DNA of 64,000 nucleotides from positions 186,001 through 250,000 of the forward strand of contig JAJVIP010000009.1 in the NCBI GenBank assembly GCA_022072025.1, given 5' to 3'. Source of the stretch: Elusimicrobiota bacterium (lineage in GTDB: Bacteria; Elusimicrobiota; Elusimicrobia; F11). The notes under the pieces were generated by a model, which saw only the letters and a program-made list of their open reading frames with translations, made no database searches and had not been told where the DNA came from. The position numbers were made by a program, and so were the translations under genes. Position 1 is the stretch's first letter. Every line of letters begins with the position of its first letter. Positions 12,599-24,046 of the stretch are shown one piece after another.

Positions 12599-13081
12599 AA
12601 GAAGAAACGGATCAATAAAGTCGCCCCCGGGCGTGATAATTTCAAAATGCAGATGCGGGGTCGAGGCTCGGCCCGTGGCCCCCACAATGCCGATTGTTTG
12701 ACCTGTTTTGACTCGCTCGCCGAGCTTGATCTTGATTGATTTTAAATGGGCGTAGCGGGTTTCGTATCCGTCTGAATGGTGAATTTTGATTTGTTTCCCA
12801 TAACCCTTGACCCAACCGACCGACATGACGCGCCCCGCTCGAGAGGCCACAACCGCATCTCCGCCTGTCAACCTAGCGCGGATGTCGATTCCAGTATGAA
12901 ATCCTTTTCCCCGTTTCCCAAATTTTGAGAGGAGTGAAGCATTGGCAAGCGGCCAATGAAATTTTTCAGAGGGTTTTACTTTGATTTGAGTTGAAATGGG
13001 GATGCGTTTGATAGGGGAGGGCGCGCAAGCGAAAAAACCAAACACCGGCGCAAGAAATATGAAGGTGAGAAATAACCTCAT
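12590..13081 (-). CDS. M23-family (LytM) peptidase lipoprotein
   Basis: Short (163 aa) murein-type endopeptidase or LytM factor. A hydrophobic leader ends in FFAC (C19), close to a lipobox, so probably a lipoprotein facing the periplasm. The M23 zinc ligands are all present: H62 and D66 in HTGIDIRA, and H145 in HLHFE, with H143 as the usual catalytic histidine. It therefore could be an active peptidase cutting peptide cross-links. Its 3' end overlaps the convergent DUF4139 gene by 9 bp. Confidence 0.9.
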   Translation of the reverse strand: MRLFLTFIFLAPVFGFFACAPSPIKRIPISTQIKVKPSEKFHWPLANASLLSKFGKRGKGFHTGIDIRARLTGGDAVVASRAGRVMSVGWVKGYGKQIKIHHSDGYETRYAHLKSIKIKLGERVKTGQTIGIVGATGRASTPHLHFEIITPGGDFIDPFLLLP

Positions 13082-13477
13082 GATGAGGTCTCATGATACC
13101 ATCGAGAAATGATAATTTCCTGCTGAGATATGACTGGGAAATTATTCGTTAAAAAAGAATCATCGCGCGCCCGCCGAGTTGAAAAGTTGTTCAACCGTAT
13201 CAGCCTTATTTTGGAGCATGCGCGGCGGAACGTGGTTCGGACTGTAAACACCGAAATGGTTCAAGCCTACTGGATGATTGGTCAGGAAATCGTGGAAGAG
13301 GAACAACAGGGACGGGCACGGGCTGAATATGGGGAAGGTTTAATTGAGAATCTGTCTCATCGGTTGAGCGGTCGCTATGGCAGAGGTTTTACGCCCACTT
13401 TACTTAAGAGAATGCGCCAATTTTATTTGAGATATAAAAAAGGTGCCGCAACGCGGCTCCAATTGGGAAAAAAATCG

Positions 13478-13502
13478 AATAGTGCCGCACTGCGGCACTA
13501 TT
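13478..13502. repeat. Perfect 12-bp-arm palindrome in DUF1016 linker
   Basis: AATAGTGCCGCA, one C, then its exact reverse complement, inside the coding sequence for the variable linker before LSWTHY. A second, shorter palindrome (GCCGC-aac-GCGGC) lies about 20 bp upstream near 13445-13457. Both look like small palindromic insertions tolerated in a linker. Confidence 0.8.
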
Positions 13503-13906
13503 CCAGTGAAACCTGGTCGCTATCTTGGACTCATTACAGAACATTGATCACCGTTGAAAGCCAATACGCCCGAGCTTTCTACGAAACCGAAGCCATGGAA
13601 AACAATTGGTCTGCACGGGAACTGGAACGTCAAATCAATAGCCTTTTATTTGAACGTTTGGCCAAGAGCAGAGACAAGAAAGGATTGTTAAAGCTGGCTC
13701 AGAAAGGACAGGAAATCCAAACTCCTGAGGACGCCATTAAAGATCCCTTTGTTCTCGAATTTCTCGACTTACCCGAATCCCATAAACTGGTTGAGTCCAA
13801 TTTGGAACAGGCTCTTATAACGGATTTACAGAACTTTCTCCTCGAGCTCGGAAAAGGTTTTGCTTTTATCGAAAGGCAGTCGCGGCTTACCTTGGATGGC
13901 GATCAC

Positions 13907-14008
13907 TGCGGCTGAAGCCCCGGACGTAAGTCCGGGATTACCTTACCGCGGTACTTTTCCGGGGATACAAGTCCCGGAAAAGTGGCAGCCCGAAGGGCTG
14001 CCCTTGAC
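13907..14008 (+). repeat. Structured element copy 1 (102 bp, inside DUF1016 gene)
   Basis: Predicted helices: P1 TGCGG (13907-13911) with CCGCG (13946-13950); P2 CCCGGAC (13919-13925) with GTCCGGG (13930-13936) around a GTAA loop; P3 ACTTTTCCGGG (13953-13963) with its complement at 13973-13983; P4 GGCAGCCC (13984-13991) with GGGCTGCC (13995-14002). The tail is CTTGAC. All four helices have counterparts with different but still pairing sequence in copy 2 (15340-15426). Boundaries are set by where the DUF1016 reading resumes. Confidence 0.8.
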
Positions 14009-14400
14009 TTTTACGTGGATTTGGTTTTCTATCACACTATTCTGAAGTGTTATATTCTGATTGATATAAAAACAGGAAAGTTGACTCACGGCGATATCGG
14101 CCAAATGCAACTTTACGTAAATTACTTCGATCAGGAGCGACGTACTTCCGGCGACAACTCTACTATCGGCCTAATTTTGTGTGCCGATAAGAACGAGGCA
14201 ATGGTGAAATATATGTTAGGTCGAGATAAGAAAAAGATATTTGCCAGTCGATATAAGTTGCATCTGCCGAGTGAAAACGAATTGGCAAATGAAATTCGTA
14301 AGGAGCTACGGGAGATACGTCAGGCTTAGAGATTTTCCAATAGGCTGTTGGAGAATATAGCGATTAGATATACAGTGAACGAGTAGGCTGCCGATTTTTC

Positions 14401-14441
14401 GGGCATGTGGCGGAATGGCAGACTCACGGGACTTAAAATCC
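14401..14441 (+). pseudogene. 5' fragment of tRNA-Leu(UAA)
   Basis: Forty-one bases match the first 41 bases of the intact tRNA-Leu at 15444 with two differences (39/41), covering the acceptor 5' strand, D arm and anticodon loop. After TTAAAATCC the match stops: no variable arm, T arm or acceptor 3' strand follows. It is a duplicated, non-functional remnant. The surrounding 14330-14565 gap holds nothing else I can name. Confidence 0.85.
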
Positions 14442-14565
14442 GAAAACTCCTCCTGAGAACCAACTGTTTCCAGCGTGTGTGTCGAAAAAGTGTCAACGGA
14501 AGATGTCGACAAAGATATCCCCCTCAAAAAGAAGTGATATATAAGCTACTATAGGGGAGGTCTCA

Positions 14566-14904
14566 ATGGACGTCATTCCAAAGAGAATCGAATATTACAC
14601 CACGGTTGAAGGCAAGGTCCCATTTCGGGAGTGGTACTACTCACTCAAAGACATCAAGACTCAAGCGGTGGTTCGTGAGCGATTGACTCGTGTTGAACGC
14701 GGACTTCTGGGCGACTTTAAATGGGTAGGCGAAGGGGTGTGCGAATTGCGTATTTCTTTTGGGCCAGGGTTCCGGATTTATTTTGGACAAGAAGGACGCA
14801 CCGTGGTTTGGTTGCTTTGCGGTGGAGAGAAAAACACACAGAAGAGAGACATTAAAACTGCGCATGTTTATTGGGGCGATTATTTGAGGAGGAAGAATCA
14901 ATGA
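14566..14904 (+). CDS. RelE/HigB-type toxin
   Basis: A 112-aa protein of the RelE/HigB-like (phage Gp49-like, addiction-module killer) family, expected to be a ribosome-associated mRNA endonuclease. Recognisable parts are the EYYTTVEGKVPFREWYYSL N-terminus, the GVCELRISFGPGFRIYFG core and the VVWLLCGGEKNTQKRDI segment, which holds the family's conserved basic end. A GGGGAGG ribosome site sits 8 bp before the ATG, and TACTATA just upstream is a possible -10. It overlaps the antitoxin by 4 bp (ATGA); the toxin-first order is typical of this family. It lies between a tRNA-Leu fragment and the intact tRNA. Confidence 0.88.
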   Translation: MDVIPKRIEYYTTVEGKVPFREWYYSLKDIKTQAVVRERLTRVERGLLGDFKWVGEGVCELRISFGPGFRIYFGQEGRTVVWLLCGGEKNTQKRDIKTAHVYWGDYLRRKNQ

Positions 14905-15221
14905 AAAATCCTACTTATCATGAGGATCTCATCAACGATCTTAAAGATCCTAAATTTGCTTTGGAATATCTTAATGCTTGTCTAGAGGGGGGGGATGAAG
15001 GTACATTCCTCTTGGCGCTGCGACATGTGGCAGAAGCGCATGGCGGCTTTGTCAAACTTGCTAAGAAAACGAAAATAAGTCGCGAACATCTTTTTCGGAT
15101 GTTGTCCAAGAAGGGAAACCCCCGTTTAACCAGCCTCCAAAACCTCGCCGATGTATTCGGATGGCGACTTGCTCTTGTTGAAAAAGACCAAACGCATTCT
15201 CACCTGCGAAAAGCAGCGTAA
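14901..15221 (+). CDS. HigA-like antitoxin (HTH protein)
   Basis: A 106-aa helix-turn-helix antidote partner of the upstream toxin; it should bind the toxin and repress the operon. The start is ATG 14901, with AGGAGGA 7-13 bases upstream, inside the toxin's last codons; the longer reading from 14871 has no such site. The family features are KNPTYHEDLINDLKDPKFALEYLNACLE at the N-terminus and the HTH-bearing GFVKLAKKTKISREHLFRMLS with LTSLQNLADVFGWRL after it. Confidence 0.88.
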   Translation: MKNPTYHEDLINDLKDPKFALEYLNACLEGGDEGTFLLALRHVAEAHGGFVKLAKKTKISREHLFRMLSKKGNPRLTSLQNLADVFGWRLALVEKDQTHSHLRKAA

Positions 15222-15265
15222 TATCGTATCCAAAATAAGCTCAATATTAATTACCATTAAATTAT

Positions 15266-15304
15266 CCCCAGTAATAATTGGGGTCACGATGTGAGCATTG
15301 TGAC
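15266..15304. other. Two adjacent hairpins after the toxin-antitoxin pair
   Basis: CCCCA (15266-15270) pairs with TGGGG (15279-15283), and GTCACGATG (15283-15291) pairs with CATTGTGAC (15296-15304) with one bulge. No T-run follows, so this is not a canonical intrinsic terminator. It may be a transcript end, a regulator site or part of the islet's repeat debris. The rest of 15222-15339 shows nothing else. Confidence 0.4.
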
Positions 15305-15339
15305 TGCATAGGTTTTGAACGCTTTTTGAATCGGTTTAT

Positions 15340-15426
15340 CGTGGCCAAGACCCCGGTCGTAAGTCCGGGGTTACCTTACCACGATACTCGCCGCGGCGAG
15401 TGGCACCGTCGTTCGGTGCCCTTGAT
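15340..15426 (+). repeat. Structured element copy 2 (about 87 bp, before tRNA-Leu)
   Basis: Aligns with copy 1 through CCCCGG-CGTAAGTCCGGG-TTACCTTACC and the GCCCTTGA end. Helices: P1 CGTGG with CCACG; P2 ACCCCGG with CCGGGGT, a T-T mismatch, then C-GTAA-G; P3 ACTCGCC with GGCGAGT; P4 GGCACCG with CGGTGCC. P1, P3 and P4 differ from copy 1 on both strands yet still pair, and the GTAA loop is unchanged. It lies 17 bp before the tRNA and in the same orientation as copy 1. Confidence 0.75.
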
Positions 15427-15443
15427 TAGAAAAGAGTTTTGTT

Positions 15444-15526
15444 GGGCATGTGGCGGAATGGCAGACGCACAGGACTTAAAATCCTGTTTTCTTCGGAGAG
15501 TGTGGGTTCGAGTCCCTCCATGCCCA
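15444..15526 (+). tRNA. tRNA-Leu (anticodon UAA)
   Basis: The acceptor stem GGGCATG pairs with CATGCCC (15519-15525), with discriminator A at 15526. The anticodon stem CAGGA/TCCTG encloses CTTAAAA, giving anticodon TAA at 15477-15479, which reads UUA. A longer variable region and a T arm with TTCGAGT are present, as expected for Leu. CCA is not encoded. A 41-nt 5' duplicate lies about 1 kb upstream. Confidence 0.93.
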
Positions 15527-15583
15527 TTTTGGAAGTTAAAAAAAGTTGATGGGGGAAAGAAATCTCTCAGTCAACTGGTCGTG

Positions 15584-18500
15584 TTAGGCGGCGCTGTTTC
15601 TGATTCTTTGTTCTTTTCCCGTGGGCAGGTTCTTCTTAGGCGAAGGCAGGAGGATACCCTCCACATTATTTTTGTTTGGCTTATCGTTTCTGTTGTTAGA
15701 GCGGGAGCCCTTCGTGCCTCCTTGATAACGGCCCGCCACGCCGACCGGCTCAACCCCTCCAAAAACTTGCTGAAAGATATCCTTCCTCTTTAACTTTGAT
15801 TCCTTTGCTCGGGCCAGATGGTGAACGTGGCGGAACCAGAGGAATCCTCCAGCAAGGGTCGCAACAATTAACTGGAAAACGATTCCATACACCCAATGGT
15901 CACTGGTCGGCACTTTTGGAAAACCCTTTTCTTGTCCCACGACGATTGACATGAATTGAGATAAGAAAAATGGGCTGGCCAGGGGCAGAAGACTGAATGC
16001 GCTGGGAGCGCCGACAAGACGCGGGTCAACAACAGGATCTGTTTCTGTCGAAGGATCTGGAGTGGGGTCCTCAACACCATCGAAATCACCACCATCTCCT
16101 TTGTATCCAGAATTAGTGACGTAGATTAAGGCACAATTTTCTGGAAGATCTACGTTATATTTTTTTGACAGCTCTCTCACCTCGTCGGTGACGACAACAC
16201 CGACGGTCTCGAGGTCTTCGCCCCAGCCATAACTGTATTGTGTGGCCAATATATGTGCCCCGTGTGCAATGGCGTCGGTTCTATTGAACCACGTCAAGGG
16301 ATAGACCGCTAAACTGTCGAGGTGAATAAAAGTCCGCGCGTTTTCTCCTTCGTAGGAACTTCTGTTCCAATCAACTTGATCGAGCTCAGTTAGGATGGCA
16401 ATTTTCCCTTTCCTACTTCTCCACTCGTGCGCGGTTTTTTCAAATGCCCAGAATTTTTTAACAAATTCGATCCTTGCCGCATTCTTCTGGCGCACGTGTT
16501 GGAGATCAACAAGGAATCTTAGTGCGGTTGTTATGCGGGAGGGTTGATCAGGGGACGATTCTGGCACCTTAAGTTTTTCTCGCAACATGGTCAGCTTGTC
16601 GTTTAGATTGGTGTTGGGACGGATGTGAGAGTTCACAAATTCTTCAATCGTGCCAAGCCGGTCCGATTCCAGAGTTTCAATATCAAGTTCATCCATCCAG
16701 TTAAAAAGATTTTTTAAATATCGCTCGGGATTTTCAATGACCCAATCTGTGCTGAAGTGAGCCATGGACTCAAACCAGGCAAGCTCAAAATTTCCGTGCT
16801 GAACACTGTCTCCGTCACGGAGGAGGATGACCCACTGGACGTTTGACGCCTTATGTAATTCCTTTCTGGTGGAGTCCAGTGGCTTGTTCCACGACATTAA
16901 ATTCGAATCTTTCGGGGTTATGGCCACTCGAAGTTCGCGCAGTTTATCGTCAAGGTTTTCATCTGATTCATCGTCTCTTCCGAAGGTTACAATCAATTCC
17001 AAAAATTGCCTCGCGGATTCTTGATTTAGATCGGGTGTTACTTTTTTCAATTGATCGATTTGAGGGATAAAAGAATATATGAATGGTCGTAGACTTGGTT
17101 CTCTTTGAGAAACTGTTAGGAGTTCGTCACGAAGAAGTTTTCTTTGAGCAGCGTTAAGAGGATTTAACAGCGCACCCTTCAGCCGATTAATAAACTCCGC
17201 GTACTTGTTGGAGGCTTGGCTACTGTCCCGCGCTTCTCGCTCGGCTACGAATATATGCAACAGCAAGAATATTCGGGCGTGAACACCGGTGGTGCTGGAG
17301 AATTTCAACCTCATTGCACCAACGACTCTTTGCGCTGTTATAACTTGGTCCTCAAGAGAAATTTCGAGATCATCTCGAAAGAGATGCCGGATCAGCCAAG
17401 GAAGATGCTTAAGGAACTTGTCTCCGTCCGGTTCACCAGTCATGTTTTGTATCTCTTCTCGTCCGCCCTCAAAATCAGTCGGGCCGCTGGAGTAGATGCG
17501 TTCAATTGTCCATTCGGAAATGGGATATTCGTAGGGACGTTCTAATCCTTCAATCCGAATTGATTTTCGGGGTTTTTCACTTCCATCGGATCCGGTCGTG
17601 GTACTCATCTTCGTGGGCTTGTTAAGCAGTCCCACCCATTCCACCTCAAGGTTTGGGAAAAGCCCCCAAAAATCAAAATCCACACCTTCCGGTGTGGTTA
17701 ATTTTCTGGCGGGATCTATGTGAATTCGAACGGGCCACTGTAAGGCGGGGGCAAGCTCACCCAGTCCCTTGAGCACTTGGTAATCATGATCCCAGTGACA
17801 AAGCGCGAGGGGAATTCCAAAGGTGCAAGCGACAACGAAAGGGAAGGCGAAACCGAATATCGAATCAAGAAAGAAAACCAATGGAGGAATGCCGAAATAA
17901 ACCAAGGTGAGAGACGCCAGAATTCCTATTTGATTCCAGGATCCGAAGTGGGGGAGACGTTGACCTTTTTTCCACTCGAGGTGTTCTCCCCAAAACAAAA
18001 CGAAGTTAAACAACTGCAGGACGAGAACGGCGTTATAGACATGGATTGTTTCCCATCCGAAGGGATTCAAGAGCAAGAGATACGGAAGAGACAATCGCAC
18101 TGGTTCCCATAGGGCCGCGATGGCCGCTGTTGTTCCTGGCCCATCGACCCATTCCTGTCCGAACACGGGTTCGAGAGATTTTTCAAGGGGTCGAAAGAGA
18201 GCCTTCACCAGAGGAACCACAAATTTTCGCGTGCTCTTGGCGAGGGCGGCGTCTTTTTTTTGCTCTACGCTTCCATTGACTTTTGAAGATTGTCCAGCGA
18301 GTATTTTCTTGGCGTTGGTACCGTCCCAGTATCCTGGTTCAACATATAGAAAGTCGAACGTTTTAGAATCAATATTAATGGTGCCATTGGGATCTCGTGT
18401 CGCTTTTCCCTCTTCTATCTCCCATTCCAGAGCCAACGACACAAGCATATGAATGGGCATCGTGGGATTGGATAAATGTGGGAAGTACAGTCGTTTGGCG

Positions 18501-21500
18501 ATGCTCGTTTTAAGGAGGTAAATCCACTCCGGCGAACCGATAGGGATGTTGGTATTTTCGAGCGCCTTAAAATCGACGGCATGCTGAGACATGATTCCTT
18601 TTAGAGGGTTGGGTGAAAGGTGGGCAAGTTGCTCGCATTTTTCTTTGTTCCATCCCTGATAAGCGAGATAGATGTACTGGATGGCCAAACTCCGAGCAAT
18701 GATCTCAAGTTCGGTTGAAATAATTGTGCGGACCAAGAGTTTGTGTTGGGGGTACGCAGCGAGGTTTTCATGATGAGCCTGTAGAAGTTCGTAAAGCTTG
18801 ATGTGATGTTCAATGTTCTCGATATTGTCGGCAATATAAGTCTGAGCGAGCAGTTCTCCTTTTACATAGTTCAATAGTTCTCGTGCGAGCGAAGGATTCG
18901 ATTGCATCAAGCGTTCGGCCTCCTCAACATAATGGCGAAGCAGTGGAAAATTAATATGGAGCTGAGGTCGTCCGCTTCTAGGCACAACTTGACAGAGGGG
19001 GCCCTTACGAGGAATAGCGACGCTTCCCGGATCTCGGTTGTAATTCAACTTAAATTCGTCAATGAGGGCGCGAATGCGGTGCCCATCGGCAGTTAACTGG
19101 TCGGCATATTGCAATTCCCAGGACAATGCTTCGAGAAGATCTACGTCCGATAGCGTAAAAAGGTATTCAATTTGCCGAGGTTCCGGTTTCTTTAAACCCT
19201 GAATGATGGATCGTCCACTGGAACCCAGGGCGGCCCCCCAACCCAGGGTGCCCAGTGAGCTGATTTTAATGAACGACCGCCTTGGTAAGACGGGCGCCGC
19301 ACGCGGTCCTAAGCGTTTTTGAACACTTTTTTGCACCGTCGGAATCCTGTCTTGTTTCGCGCCTGGACGATGAAGAAGCCTCCCTACAAGGTAGGAACCA
19401 AAGGCGCCCGCCAACGCGGAGCCCATTCCAGGGATATAGCTTCCAATAATAAAAATCGTAAAGCCTGCCATGAGATAGACGACCGACGTCTTGGATAGTT
19501 TTTTGAAGGGCGCGTGGTAGATTAAAACGTAGGCAAAAAGCGCGGTGAGGATGTAGACCATGATATCTCCCATTGTTCCAGTCCCAAATTCAACATCGTA
19601 CATTTGAGCGATCTCCTGGTAGAGACCATTAATAAGCGTATTGGTCGCAATAAGGAATAGACCCCAGCGGTAAACTGTTTCCAGGTGACTAAGAAAAAGT
19701 GGCGATTTGGAGGTCTCGGTACTCCACAGCGTGTGCCTGATGATGTACAGGATCACATAGAAGCCTCCGACCAACCCGGGGATGTAGAGAGCATCATTGA
19801 GGTAACCATTCACAAAATTATTTAGGAATCCCCAGTCTAATTTCCAACTGTAGCTTGTTGATAATCTATACATGGCAAAGACGACGATAATGATGGAGCT
19901 GGCGAGGGCGGTGAACGTGAATGTCTCAGAGTTCCGAAGGGCGAGCGTCCGCGAGGAGGGACCAACCCCCTTTTTATTTGCTTTTGATTTTATGGACCAC
20001 CCGACGAGTGAACCGGTGATGAATAGGGCGCCCCAACTCTCGATGAAATCAATCAGTCCCAGGTAGGGTTTTATTCTGTCGCTTCGTCCATCATGCATGA
20101 GTCGTTCCAAGTAGCCAAACGCATCCCGATGGAAAGCGGTAGCGATGATATCTTCGAGATCTTCTTTCGATTGAACCGAACCGGCACTGATGTTGATTTC
20201 AATTCGAAATTCATTCAAGTGATAACAGAGCCTCCATTTGGTTGATTTGAATAGGTGGTTGGTGACCTGATCAAACAGAGGTTTCTCGAATCTCACAATA
20301 TTGATGTGCAATCCTCGTTTGACGAGTTCCTGGTACATGGTCTCTGTTAAGTCGAAGTCCTCCAGCAACCGTTTGAGCGCAACCCGCGCGACATGGTCAA
20401 AATCAATATCGCTGTATTGAAAAGATATATACAAGGTCGGGCGCTGGACTGTGACTTTAATCGGAGCCGGGTCTCGGTTGGGTTTTTCTTGAGCATCGAG
20501 CAGGTCGCCGCTCGGGAGGAATGATGCGATCGCAGCGCCGGCGGCGTACATGAAAAAGGGGCGCCTTGAAAGAGTCGCCAAGTGTTGACGGGTCTGGCTT
20601 CCGACGGTTTTCCCTCCGGGTTCCCTTAATGCGTGCTTGTCATGTTCCCAGTGAAAAAGCGAGAGGGTTCCGACGAAAGCGAAACCGAAAGCGAACACAG
20701 GGTTGAGGAAGAAGCATAACATGGGAAGGGCGAAATAGGCGATGGTGAGTAGCGCCAGAATTCCTATTTGATTCCAGGATCCGAAGTGGGGGAGACGTTG
20801 ACCTTTTTTCCACTCGAGGTGTTCTCCCCAAAACAAAACGAAGTTAGACAACTGCAGGACGAGAACGGCGTTATAGACATGGATTGTTTCCCATCCGAAG
20901 GGATTCAAGAGCAAGAGATACGGAAGAGCCAATCGCACCGGTTCCCATAGGGCCGCGATGGCCGCTGTTGTTCCTGGCCCATCGACCCATTCCTGTCCGA
21001 ACCAGGGTTCGAGAGATTTTTCAAGGGGTCGAAAGAGAGCCTTCACCAGAGGAACCACAAATTTTCGCGTGCTCTTGGCGAGGGCGGCGTCGGTGCGAGA
21101 GGGAGAGGCTCTTTCCAAAGAGTTAGAAGATTTTTTCCCGAGAGTTTTTCCGATGACCCCTTTCCTTAGTGTCATGGTTGGCATGGAATGGCCCCAGAGG
21201 ATGTAATTCAATACGTGGAAAGGATAACCCACGAAGAACAGGCCATAGGCAGCGGAACTAAGTTGAAAAACGTAATTTTGAATGTATTCCAGGATGGAAT
21301 AGAAACTTAAAAAAACGACGGCAGAATAGAGCGGAGCGAACCCACAAAATGACACCACGAGATAGATGCCTAAAACCGCGTTGATTGGAAACAGGATTAT
21401 TCGTGCAAATCGATAGAGTGGTTTTAAGAAGGAGGGGTTTAATAGGAAAAAGGACTTCGTCGATGGCAAGGAAAATTGGCCACTGTCATACGTTAAATAA

Positions 21501-24046
21501 GCAATAAAAGCAGTGATGCATAGCCATGCTGTTACCATCCCCCATTTGATTTGCGGAGCGGATGCCGCCCCCGTAAGAACAGAACCCAGCAATGCAATAG
21601 GGACAAATAGAGTGAGCGACATGAGATTGGATGAATTTTCCTCCCCGTCATTTTGAAATTTTGGTTTGTAAAAACTCTCCATTCGTTTCAATTTGAGAAA
21701 GTTGTTAAACCAAAATACGGAGTAAATAAAGGCTCCGAGCGTTACGGAAATGAAGACAAAATGGAGGAGGATGCTCATGCCTTCCCCATGCCCGAAAATA
21801 AAATGGCTTATGAGGCGGGTTGGATATTGAAGAAAAACGGCCAAGTTTTGCATGAATGAGAAACTGGAGAGAGATTGGTAAGAGTGGGCAGAATGAAGAT
21901 CTTTTGAGATTTCCGATTCCCTTGTCTCGAAAATTCCTCTCGACCAAAGGAACCTGTTTTTTTTGATAACGAGCCGATCGAAAATAAAAGAGGCGATTAT
22001 TGCGATGAATAGGATCAAGAGGAACCAAAAAGCAAACTCCGGTGACATCCCCGCCTGTGGATTTTTCAAGGCAGGCTCAATTTGGGCCAAGAGGGGGGGG
22101 AAATGATCTCCCCATGCATTTTTCGGAGATAGGACGTTGACTGATACTGCTGCGATGGCACCCGCCGCAGAGAGAGCGATGGTCCAACGTTCGGGGCCGA
22201 ACTGGGTCCAATAAGCGTGTTTGTTACGACCGTGGGTGACGGGTTCCGCTTTGTTGTTCAGTCCAAAGTGGCTGACCGCGGCCTGCATCCATCTTCTCCC
22301 TCTCGTTGCTTCAAAAGTCGCCAGCAATTTCCCGCCGGCTCTTTGTGCAATGGCGGGATGGTTTGCGAGGTAAAGCTTTTGTCCCTCGAAGAGTTGGTCG
22401 AGGGGGGTTTTTTGTTGGGTGAAGACGCTGAGGGTGGCGGAGCCATTATCGGTTTGAACTTGGGTGATTTTTGGGACGAAGGAAATGATGATTGGCTGTT
22501 CGGTTGAGGACCGCTGAAGGACATCTTTGATGCCTTGGGCGTGGAAGCCGCCGGTGACCAAAACGGCGACGTTCACATTTTTATGGGTTATGGCCTGAGA
22601 TAGGTTGTTGGCGATGGCTTTGTCTCGGAGTTCGGCTTGTTGGTAAAACTGCTCGAAACTTTCCAGGCCAAGGGTCCCCCTCCCTCGACTTTGTCTCAGG
22701 GAAGGGAACATTTTTTCCCGTAAAGTTGTCATCTTATATTCCCGCCACTCTTCTGGGGTAAGCGAAAAATCCACCAACTTTCCGGTCAAATAGAGATCGT
22801 GTGATATCTTAATGAGAGCACGTTCACCTGCGGTCTGGATTAACTGGGTGTAGATTTTTTCTTCCAAATCTTTCAGGTCCCTCAGCAAATCCTCCGCCTC
22901 AATGGTCTCCGCTAGGAGAACGTAGTGAAGGTAGTCATTGATTCTTCTGAACTGGCGGAGTTGAATGCCATTGGATTCGCAGAGGGCGTTGAGGTATTGG
23001 TAGAAGTCGGAGTGGTTAATATCGCCTGCGCAGAGCGCAAGGCCGGTTTCCATGAGCTCCGTCGCGGCCGCTTTGTCAAGTTTTTTGAGGAGTTGGGAGA
23101 GAAGAAGAGAACGCTCGTGTTCGACCTGAGCGTAGTCGAGAGATCGCTCGAGGCGAAGCGCCTCAAGAAAAGTGGCGATGGAGAAGGGAAGATCTGAGTT
23201 GAGGCCTGATTTGAAACCCGCCACATGCTCCGCATAGTCTCCCATTTCGATTTTTCCTTCACGATATGCGTCGACCTTTTGGTCAAATTGCCAAAGCCGT
23301 GTGTTGAACATTTTCGCTTTTCTGTTTCGGTATTCGATTTTGAGATTTTGAATTTGCTTGGAATATATTGCTTGGATCTTGGCGCTTTGCCGGTAGGCTT
23401 CGACATTGGTGGCGTGGTGGAGAGAATCGTCAATGCCGAGGATTTGGGGGGATGACGGAGACGTCATCAAAGCATGAACCGGTCCCGAAATTTTATTCTC
23501 CCGCAAAAGATAGTCCGCCACTTTCTGAACGGAATCCTGGTGCGGATATGTTTGGTACGGCGTGAGGTCAATGGGTTCAAAGGCCCCCTCCAAGGCGACG
23601 AGATCGACGGATTTTTTCTGAACGAGGCCCAGGATCGCTGCCCCGATATTCTGTTGGGCTTCTTGGTTCATGTGAATGTCTTGGATGTGAACCACAATTT
23701 TTTGAGACGGCTCGGAGGACCCGGGGGTATTGTTGGGGGGGAGTGAAACGTCGCGGATGGATCCGGCTTGGGAGGACAGCGCCAGGAGGACGTTTTTTAA
23801 CTTCGAGTTAGACGTGCCGTTCCTCAGCCACCGTTCGACTTTTTTCGCGGAGACTCGTGAGGAAATGGCTTTTTGTAAATAGGGGAGCGATGGGAATTTA
23901 TTTATCGCGTCAGCCGGTAACGAAGCGAGTTCAATTTTCTTTTGCCGTTCTTTCCAAAAGTTGTTTTCTGGCGCGTACGCAAAGAGGCAATTGGTGGCCA
24001 GATAAACGGGAATGAGAACGGTGGCAATGAATCTGACGGATTTCAT
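15584..24046 (-). CDS. Giant (2820 aa) mosaic secreted/membrane protein with ChaN/Tiki-like N-terminal domain
   Basis: Signal peptide at 1-24. Residues about 110-560 resemble the TraB/ChaN/Tiki superfamily: H120-I-Q-D-I-H125, E153 in LVALEGA, and GGFH at 499-502 near the end, spaced like its H...E...H pattern; this is inference. Several hydrophobic multi-pass blocks follow, alternating with soluble stretches. One block (DAALAKSTRKFVVPLVKAL ... WEHLEW-type) occurs twice, near 985 and 1931, almost identical in DNA. Two internal Tat-like motifs each precede a hydrophobic segment: SRRPFFMYAAG near 1155 and PRRSFIKISS near 1586. The C-terminal third is soluble, then one or two membrane segments and a basic, Asn-rich tail. 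No clear ribosome site. It may be a natural multi-module protein, a fusion of paralogues or partly an assembly product. Confidence 0.7.
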   Translation of the reverse strand: MKSVRFIATVLIPVYLATNCLFAYAPENNFWKERQKKIELASLPADAINKFPSLPYLQKAISSRVSAKKVERWLRNGTSNSKLKNVLLALSSQAGSIRDVSLPPNNTPGSSEPSQKIVVHIQDIHMNQEAQQNIGAAILGLVQKKSVDLVALEGAFEPIDLTPYQTYPHQDSVQKVADYLLRENKISGPVHALMTSPSSPQILGIDDSLHHATNVEAYRQSAKIQAIYSKQIQNLKIEYRNRKAKMFNTRLWQFDQKVDAYREGKIEMGDYAEHVAGFKSGLNSDLPFSIATFLEALRLERSLDYAQVEHERSLLLSQLLKKLDKAAATELMETGLALCAGDINHSDFYQYLNALCESNGIQLRQFRRINDYLHYVLLAETIEAEDLLRDLKDLEEKIYTQLIQTAGERALIKISHDLYLTGKLVDFSLTPEEWREYKMTTLREKMFPSLRQSRGRGTLGLESFEQFYQQAELRDKAIANNLSQAITHKNVNVAVLVTGGFHAQGIKDVLQRSSTEQPIIISFVPKITQVQTDNGSATLSVFTQQKTPLDQLFEGQKLYLANHPAIAQRAGGKLLATFEATRGRRWMQAAVSHFGLNNKAEPVTHGRNKHAYWTQFGPERWTIALSAAGAIAAVSVNVLSPKNAWGDHFPPLLAQIEPALKNPQAGMSPEFAFWFLLILFIAIIASFIFDRLVIKKNRFLWSRGIFETRESEISKDLHSAHSYQSLSSFSFMQNLAVFLQYPTRLISHFIFGHGEGMSILLHFVFISVTLGAFIYSVFWFNNFLKLKRMESFYKPKFQNDGEENSSNLMSLTLFVPIALLGSVLTGAASAPQIKWGMVTAWLCITAFIAYLTYDSGQFSLPSTKSFFLLNPSFLKPLYRFARIILFPINAVLGIYLVVSFCGFAPLYSAVVFLSFYSILEYIQNYVFQLSSAAYGLFFVGYPFHVLNYILWGHSMPTMTLRKGVIGKTLGKKSSNSLERASPSRTDAALAKSTRKFVVPLVKALFRPLEKSLEPWFGQEWVDGPGTTAAIAALWEPVRLALPYLLLLNPFGWETIHVYNAVLVLQLSNFVLFWGEHLEWKKGQRLPHFGSWNQIGILALLTIAYFALPMLCFFLNPVFAFGFAFVGTLSLFHWEHDKHALREPGGKTVGSQTRQHLATLSRRPFFMYAAGAAIASFLPSGDLLDAQEKPNRDPAPIKVTVQRPTLYISFQYSDIDFDHVARVALKRLLEDFDLTETMYQELVKRGLHINIVRFEKPLFDQVTNHLFKSTKWRLCYHLNEFRIEINISAGSVQSKEDLEDIIATAFHRDAFGYLERLMHDGRSDRIKPYLGLIDFIESWGALFITGSLVGWSIKSKANKKGVGPSSRTLALRNSETFTFTALASSIIIVVFAMYRLSTSYSWKLDWGFLNNFVNGYLNDALYIPGLVGGFYVILYIIRHTLWSTETSKSPLFLSHLETVYRWGLFLIATNTLINGLYQEIAQMYDVEFGTGTMGDIMVYILTALFAYVLIYHAPFKKLSKTSVVYLMAGFTIFIIGSYIPGMGSALAGAFGSYLVGRLLHRPGAKQDRIPTVQKSVQKRLGPRAAPVLPRRSFIKISSLGTLGWGAALGSSGRSIIQGLKKPEPRQIEYLFTLSDVDLLEALSWELQYADQLTADGHRIRALIDEFKLNYNRDPGSVAIPRKGPLCQVVPRSGRPQLHINFPLLRHYVEEAERLMQSNPSLARELLNYVKGELLAQTYIADNIENIEHHIKLYELLQAHHENLAAYPQHKLLVRTIISTELEIIARSLAIQYIYLAYQGWNKEKCEQLAHLSPNPLKGIMSQHAVDFKALENTNIPIGSPEWIYLLKTSIAKRLYFPHLSNPTMPIHMLVSLALEWEIEEGKATRDPNGTINIDSKTFDFLYVEPGYWDGTNAKKILAGQSSKVNGSVEQKKDAALAKSTRKFVVPLVKALFRPLEKSLEPVFGQEWVDGPGTTAAIAALWEPVRLSLPYLLLLNPFGWETIHVYNAVLVLQLFNFVLFWGEHLEWKKGQRLPHFGSWNQIGILASLTLVYFGIPPLVFFLDSIFGFAFPFVVACTFGIPLALCHWDHDYQVLKGLGELAPALQWPVRIHIDPARKLTTPEGVDFDFWGLFPNLEVEWVGLLNKPTKMSTTTGSDGSEKPRKSIRIEGLERPYEYPISEWTIERIYSSGPTDFEGGREEIQNMTGEPDGDKFLKHLPWLIRHLFRDDLEISLEDQVITAQRVVGAMRLKFSSTTGVHARIFLLLHIFVAEREARDSSQASNKYAEFINRLKGALLNPLNAAQRKLLRDELLTVSQREPSLRPFIYSFIPQIDQLKKVTPDLNQESARQFLELIVTFGRDDESDENLDDKLRELRVAITPKDSNLMSWNKPLDSTRKELHKASNVQWVILLRDGDSVQHGNFELAWFESMAHFSTDWVIENPERYLKNLFNWMDELDIETLESDRLGTIEEFVNSHIRPNTNLNDKLTMLREKLKVPESSPDQPSRITTALRFLVDLQHVRQKNAARIEFVKKFWAFEKTAHEWRSRKGKIAILTELDQVDWNRSSYEGENARTFIHLDSLAVYPLTWFNRTDAIAHGAHILATQYSYGWGEDLETVGVVVTDEVRELSKKYNVDLPENCALIYVTNSGYKGDGGDFDGVEDPTPDPSTETDPVVDPRLVGAPSAFSLLPLASPFFLSQFMSIVVGQEKGFPKVPTSDHWVYGIVFQLIVATLAGGFLWFRHVHHLARAKESKLKRKDIFQQVFGGVEPVGVAGRYQGGTKGSRSNNRNDKPNKNNVEGILLPSPKKNLPTGKEQRIRNSAA
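17915..18253. repeat. Internal direct repeat of giant gene, distal copy
   Basis: 339 bp matching 20753-21091 with about five substitutions and no gaps. The copies are 2838 bp apart (946 codons), so recombination between them would remove or add a block in frame. The encoded segment is a membrane module with DGPGTTAAIAALWEPVRL and LLLNPFGWETIHVYNAVLV. Confidence 0.9.
20753..21091. repeat. Internal direct repeat of giant gene, proximal copy
   Basis: Partner of 17915-18253, same strand, about 98.5% identical. Sequence outside the 339 bp is related but much more diverged on the left side and unrelated on the right, which points to recent gene conversion or duplication confined to this block. Confidence 0.9.

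Follow-up and report, generated by a model that had tools for sequence, protein, structure and literature searches.

Short palindromic repeats that lie in frame within protein genes have already been described in Rickettsia and Wolbachia, and their movement is still unexplained. The Rickettsia palindromic elements (RPE) are 105-146 bp long, form hairpins and account for 19 in-frame gene insertions, the one in gmk leaving an active enzyme; terminal inverted repeats are listed for them, and target-site duplication is listed as unknown (PMC2229807). PATEs are transposase-free relatives of the IS200/IS605 transposons; they make no target-site duplication, have hairpins near their termini and a specific 5' target (PMC3119063). 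Within the IS200/IS605 group, the insertion site of ISDra2 is 3' of TTGAT (PMC2806898), while IS608 inserts 3' of TTAC through pairing with a guide sequence of the transposon (PMC5934647).

The stretch of DNA analysed here (the window, 64,000 nucleotides from an Elusimicrobiota bacterium) carries on its plus strand, at 13130..14329, a gene for a DUF1016/YhcG protein, a PDDEXK nuclease, which counts 365 codons once the insert that splits it is subtracted. Pfam analysis matched it to DUF1016_N (1.7e-42) and, in both halves, to YhcG_C, the ORF at 13130-13915 covering profile positions 2-58 and the frame at 13982-14329 positions 58-155. The sequence-only reading had placed an insert of 102 bp at 13907-14008, keeping the frame and containing one stop (TGA, 13913), and all these values were correct on re-check. 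Excision of this segment gives ...RLTLDGDH^FYVDLVFYH..., which aligns without gaps across H^F to 15 of the 15 DUF1016 homologues found in named genomes (35-59% identical); when the read-through protein is aligned, with TGA taken as a residue, the gap is exactly 34 residues in every homologue. The nearest DUF1016 homologue of the same class, 67% identical, is uninterrupted.

The insertion point is 3' of TCAC, three residues ahead of a conserved Asp in the catalytic region, and AlphaFold modelled the read-through protein too poorly for interpretation (mean pLDDT 56). The gene is otherwise intact, as had been claimed: its downstream half still matches YhcG_C and no other decay is visible, a condition that fits a recent event. 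It is probably a fresh pseudogene that has lost its function; inactivation is the likeliest outcome, and it is also the option previously indicated as the simplest. RNA excision, stop read-through and the use of separate halves, which had been listed as possible ways to rescue the protein, have no positive support.

The insert belongs to a dispersed repeat family. It is up to 96% identical to its sister copies (E down to 1e-45) and has a fold z-score of -4.8; these two findings indicate that it is not chance sequence. A DNA search of its own genome at E<=0.001 identified, besides the window copy, 11 further places, and additional partial copies exist. Covariance models, run on 235 genomes of the class and 341 of the phylum, revealed near-complete copies in the same genome (nine), in the same-family genome G002 (two), in G036 (one) and in G023 (two), together with one diverged copy in G013; the copy number of the family is low. 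Weak model matches (E 0.006 to 3e-4) in G034, G044, G119, G172 and G178 were left out of the family, and two pattern matches (L120 and L123), which looked like chance and lie inside ordinary genes, were discarded. No member was matched in plasmids, phages or IMG/VR. Element lengths are mostly 102 or 105 nt; copy E7 has 101 nt, which is not a multiple of three. Copies E3, E7 and E9, the second copy of G002 and both copies of G023 are non-coding. E9 is a second, shorter copy in the window (15338..15426, plus strand), located upstream of a tRNA-Leu, in which one hairpin (P2, see below) is replaced by CTCGCC/GGCGAG.

The family has a conserved structure, in which the stem P1 surrounds a GTAA hairpin and is followed by P2, P3 and a terminal CTTGAC. 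In the window copy, all on the plus strand, the 5' strand of P1 (13905..13911) starts with the two target bases AC and pairs with the 3' strand at 13946..13952, which provides a guide-like GU; the enclosed hairpin, CCCCGGAC-GTAA-GTCCGGGA, is at 13918..13937, P2, ACTTTTCCGGGG ... TCCCGGAAAAGT, at 13953..13983 and P3, GGCAGCCC-GAA-GGGCTGCC, at 13984..14002. Covariation analysis of 13 distinct copies revealed that 95% of the cells are paired and that 16 pairs show two-sided changes, five of these pairs being in P2 and six in P3; none of 500 shuffles reached this result, and in slid controls pairing drops to 37-49%. The 3' end CTTGAC (14003..14008) is conserved; the two copies with target TTAT have CTTGAT instead. 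Comparison of the copies revealed no terminal inverted repeats, the two ends being unrelated; a DDE-type MITE was rejected for the lack of both inverted repeats and target-site duplication.

The element is inserted without target-site duplication, as established from the repeat family, from the empty homologues and from the natural empty site of a sister copy, E5. This copy lies in a giant ORF (L054) containing a duplicated domain, of which one repeat carries E5 and the other is empty, with flanks 96-99% identical; the insertion amounts to 105 nt, in frame, and no duplication is present beyond the bases common to target and element end (TGTCCTTGAC). The target in the window is TCAC (13903..13906, plus strand), directly 5' of the insert, and it stays in the left flank. 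Flank statistics define a consensus W-T-N-A-Y, found in almost all copies; T occurs at -4 in 19 out of 21 copies, against a background of 0.23 (p ~1e-10), and the right flank is patternless by eye. The last two bases of the left flank form the outer pairs of P1, target AC with internal GU. Two copies have target AT with internal AU and a 3' end GAT instead of GAC, and probably represent one subfamily. At pair 2-50 of P1, 11 copies have C-G and 2 have U-A.

Several copies are found inside protein genes. Besides the window copy, seven near-complete ones are stop-free and in frame within ORFs. E5, E6 and E8 are in giant ORFs, one predicted peptide for E5 being SGVTLPQYFSGDTSPGK; E4 is in a membrane protein, whose homologues cleanly lack the insert, and E2 in a 296-aa ORF adjoining a LexA-like gene, in a region that is variable among the homologues without insert. 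The remaining two are a copy close to the C-terminus of RNase HII in G002 and one in an alpha/beta hydrolase of G036, where the element is antisense. In G013, the diverged copy, also antisense, corresponds to a net gain of about 25 residues in a lipoyl synthase (L084, 1060-2046) that is otherwise intact. Two 48-bp internal-deletion derivatives are present in an ArnT-like gene (L117, 632-2389, minus strand), one of them mid-gene, in frame and in sense orientation, the other antisense and forming the C-terminus, with the last codons and the stop. To judge from the open reading frames, the sister copies in genes are probably translated as 34 extra residues.

The element consensus has three of the six frames open over 34 codons, with both strands represented, and the near-complete coding copies all lie in one of these frames (8/8; chance ~0.004, with the ancestral codon used for the DUF1016 copy and the events taken as independent, although three coding copies sit in giant mosaic ORFs, two of which are N-terminally related, so that their contexts may not be fully independent). 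The length, mostly a multiple of three, and the open frames would explain how insertions in genes can survive. These features bear on the proposal that the element is a plain non-coding repeat of the REP or PATE type, whose in-frame cases are the survivors of random insertion with no coding bias in the element itself. The missing target duplication, the near-terminal hairpins and the specific 5' target are shared with PATEs (PMC3119063), and intergenic copies do occur; however, more than half of the near-complete copies are in ORFs, while REPs are mostly intergenic (PMC8266576), and three of the six frames are open. This proposal is considered unlikely, and it differs from the preferred explanation mainly in emphasis. 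The latter, held as probable, is that the insert is a non-autonomous mobile repeat of the single-stranded DNA hairpin type, translatable and behaving like the Rickettsia palindromic elements: it would enter without target duplication, with a length mostly divisible by three and frames open on both strands, and its insertions in genes would persist as an added peptide of some 34 residues.

The stop codon of the window copy is a separate matter. The family consensus, read in the DUF1016 frame, is open (CGRSPGRKSGVTLPRYFSGDTSPGKVAARRAALD, with zero stops), and at the position of the TGA (13913..13915, plus strand) other copies have CGA, which is the consensus, GGA, ACA or another sense codon in the same frame. 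The precise in-frame insertion and its likely inactivating effect, as read from the sequence at the beginning, were retained, whereas the stop as an inherent part of the insertion was not, the sister copies being stop-free there: it is a single C-to-T change (CGA to TGA) of the window copy alone. Comparison of the copies indicates that the change arose after insertion or in the immediate source of this copy. The element would have inserted 3' of TCAC in the DUF1016 gene, perhaps already with harmful effect owing to the nearby conserved Asp, and the C-to-T change would have followed then or soon after.

A preserved DUF1016 function through translational bypassing or stop read-through would agree with the single lesion and the intact downstream half, features that are equally expected, however, for a recent pseudogene. 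TGA terminates 11 of the 27 stop-to-stop ORFs of at least 300 aa in the window and is thus an ordinary stop in this genome; moreover, the codon before the insert (CAC) differs from the one at its end (GAC), and the other copies have nothing to bypass. Such a rescue appears very unlikely. A further possibility, judged very improbable, is removal at the RNA level, with the 102-nt element acting as a tiny self-splicing or protein-assisted intron and the AC of the 5' exon paired to the guide-like GU. The exact joining of the empty sequence and the strong covarying structure, which includes exon bases, are in line with excision; on the other hand, lengths of mostly 102 or 105 nt are unneeded for an excised intron, for which 102 nt is also an unfavourable size, copies E3, E7 and E9 are non-coding, and in the copy antisense to its host gene the transcript would carry the complementary strand. 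An Rfam search of window positions 13000-15500 gave no intron-family match at E<=5 and no credible RNA family, Acido-Lenti-1 (E 0.86) being at chance level. Most coding copies contain no in-frame stop and are simply translatable, so that the element need not leave the mRNA.

Regarding mobility, insertion 3' of a short target without duplication, hairpins near the termini and an apparent pairing between the target and an internal dinucleotide make the element resemble IS200/IS605 transposons. It may thus have been moved by an HUH enzyme, either IS200/IS605- or RAYT-like, with the target AC pairing to the internal GU. The genome of the window has three RAYT-like Y1 genes, none of which has an element copy beside it, and they were rejected as parents since their ends do not match; two of the RAYT-like Y1 transposase genes observed, in L062 (1913-3013 and 9836-10927), are nearly identical and about 8 kb apart, with no element alongside. 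Matching element ends were not found near the Y1 genes of G000, G001 and G003, and in the near-complete genomes of two carriers (G002 and G023) no Y1_Tnp match reached the cut-off. Given the lack of a matching transposase and of such a Y1_Tnp match in these carriers, the mechanism is put forward as a hypothetical one.

Compared with the known systems, the element shares with PATEs and IS200/IS605 members such as ISDra2 and IS608 the lack of terminal inverted repeats and target duplication, the near-terminal hairpins, the insertion 3' of a short specific sequence and internal-deletion derivatives that keep both ends (PMC3119063, PMC2806898, PMC5934647). It differs in that no parent transposon or matching transposase was found, many copies are coding and three hairpins are present; furthermore, the putative paired guide is 3' of the left hairpin, whereas in IS608 it is 5' of it. 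With the REP/RAYT (TnpA_REP) system it has in common short dispersed palindromes and RAYT-like Y1 genes in the genome; unlike REPs, it has few copies, largely intragenic, with neither a REPtron-like arrangement nor a GTAG conserved on the 5' side of a palindrome of 20-50 nt. The protein-coding palindromes of Rickettsia and Wolbachia are similar in size (~100-150 bp), hairpins, dispersal and occurrence both in intergenic regions and in frame in conserved genes (PMC2229807). Conversely, the present element lacks terminal inverted repeats and combines a defined 5' target (W-T-N-A-Y) with the constant end CTTGAY, its host lineage appears unrelated, and its peptides matched no curated family in NCBIfam (to E 10) or Pfam (to E 1), which perhaps lack some RPE families. 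The Rickettsia palindromic element can be viewed as the nearest functional analogue, with no claim of membership in the Rickettsia families: given its own target rule and the lack of inverted repeats, the element seems to work like an RPE and is not filed as one.

These repeats, in metabolic as well as giant proteins, would represent a second, apparently unrelated lineage with in-frame coding palindromes. A tentative extension, possible rather than probable, is a coding palindromic family outside Rickettsiales, mobile as single-stranded DNA and choosing T-N-A-Y via internal guide pairing; if true, the way in which RPE-like "selfish DNA in proteins" inserts would become open to experimental test. 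Thanks to the empty sites, the defined target and the fixed end, direct tests are possible both of how the repeats move and of how the inserted peptides are tolerated.

Other features were observed around the locus. A partial tRNA-Leu copy, corresponding to the 5' part, lies at 14404-14444, upstream of a toxin-antitoxin pair resembling RelE/HI1419-HI1420 (14566-15221), and a complete tRNA-Leu is found just downstream of the pair (15443-15527), an arrangement like that at the border of a small island or duplication. Giant ORFs of 1650-2820 aa are present in the window (15584-24046) and in L054 (1-8100), L055 (2-6205) and L057 (1-4971); they are partly related mosaics of transketolase, PLP-enzyme and CheR domains with repeated membrane segments, and three of them contain in-frame copies of the element.
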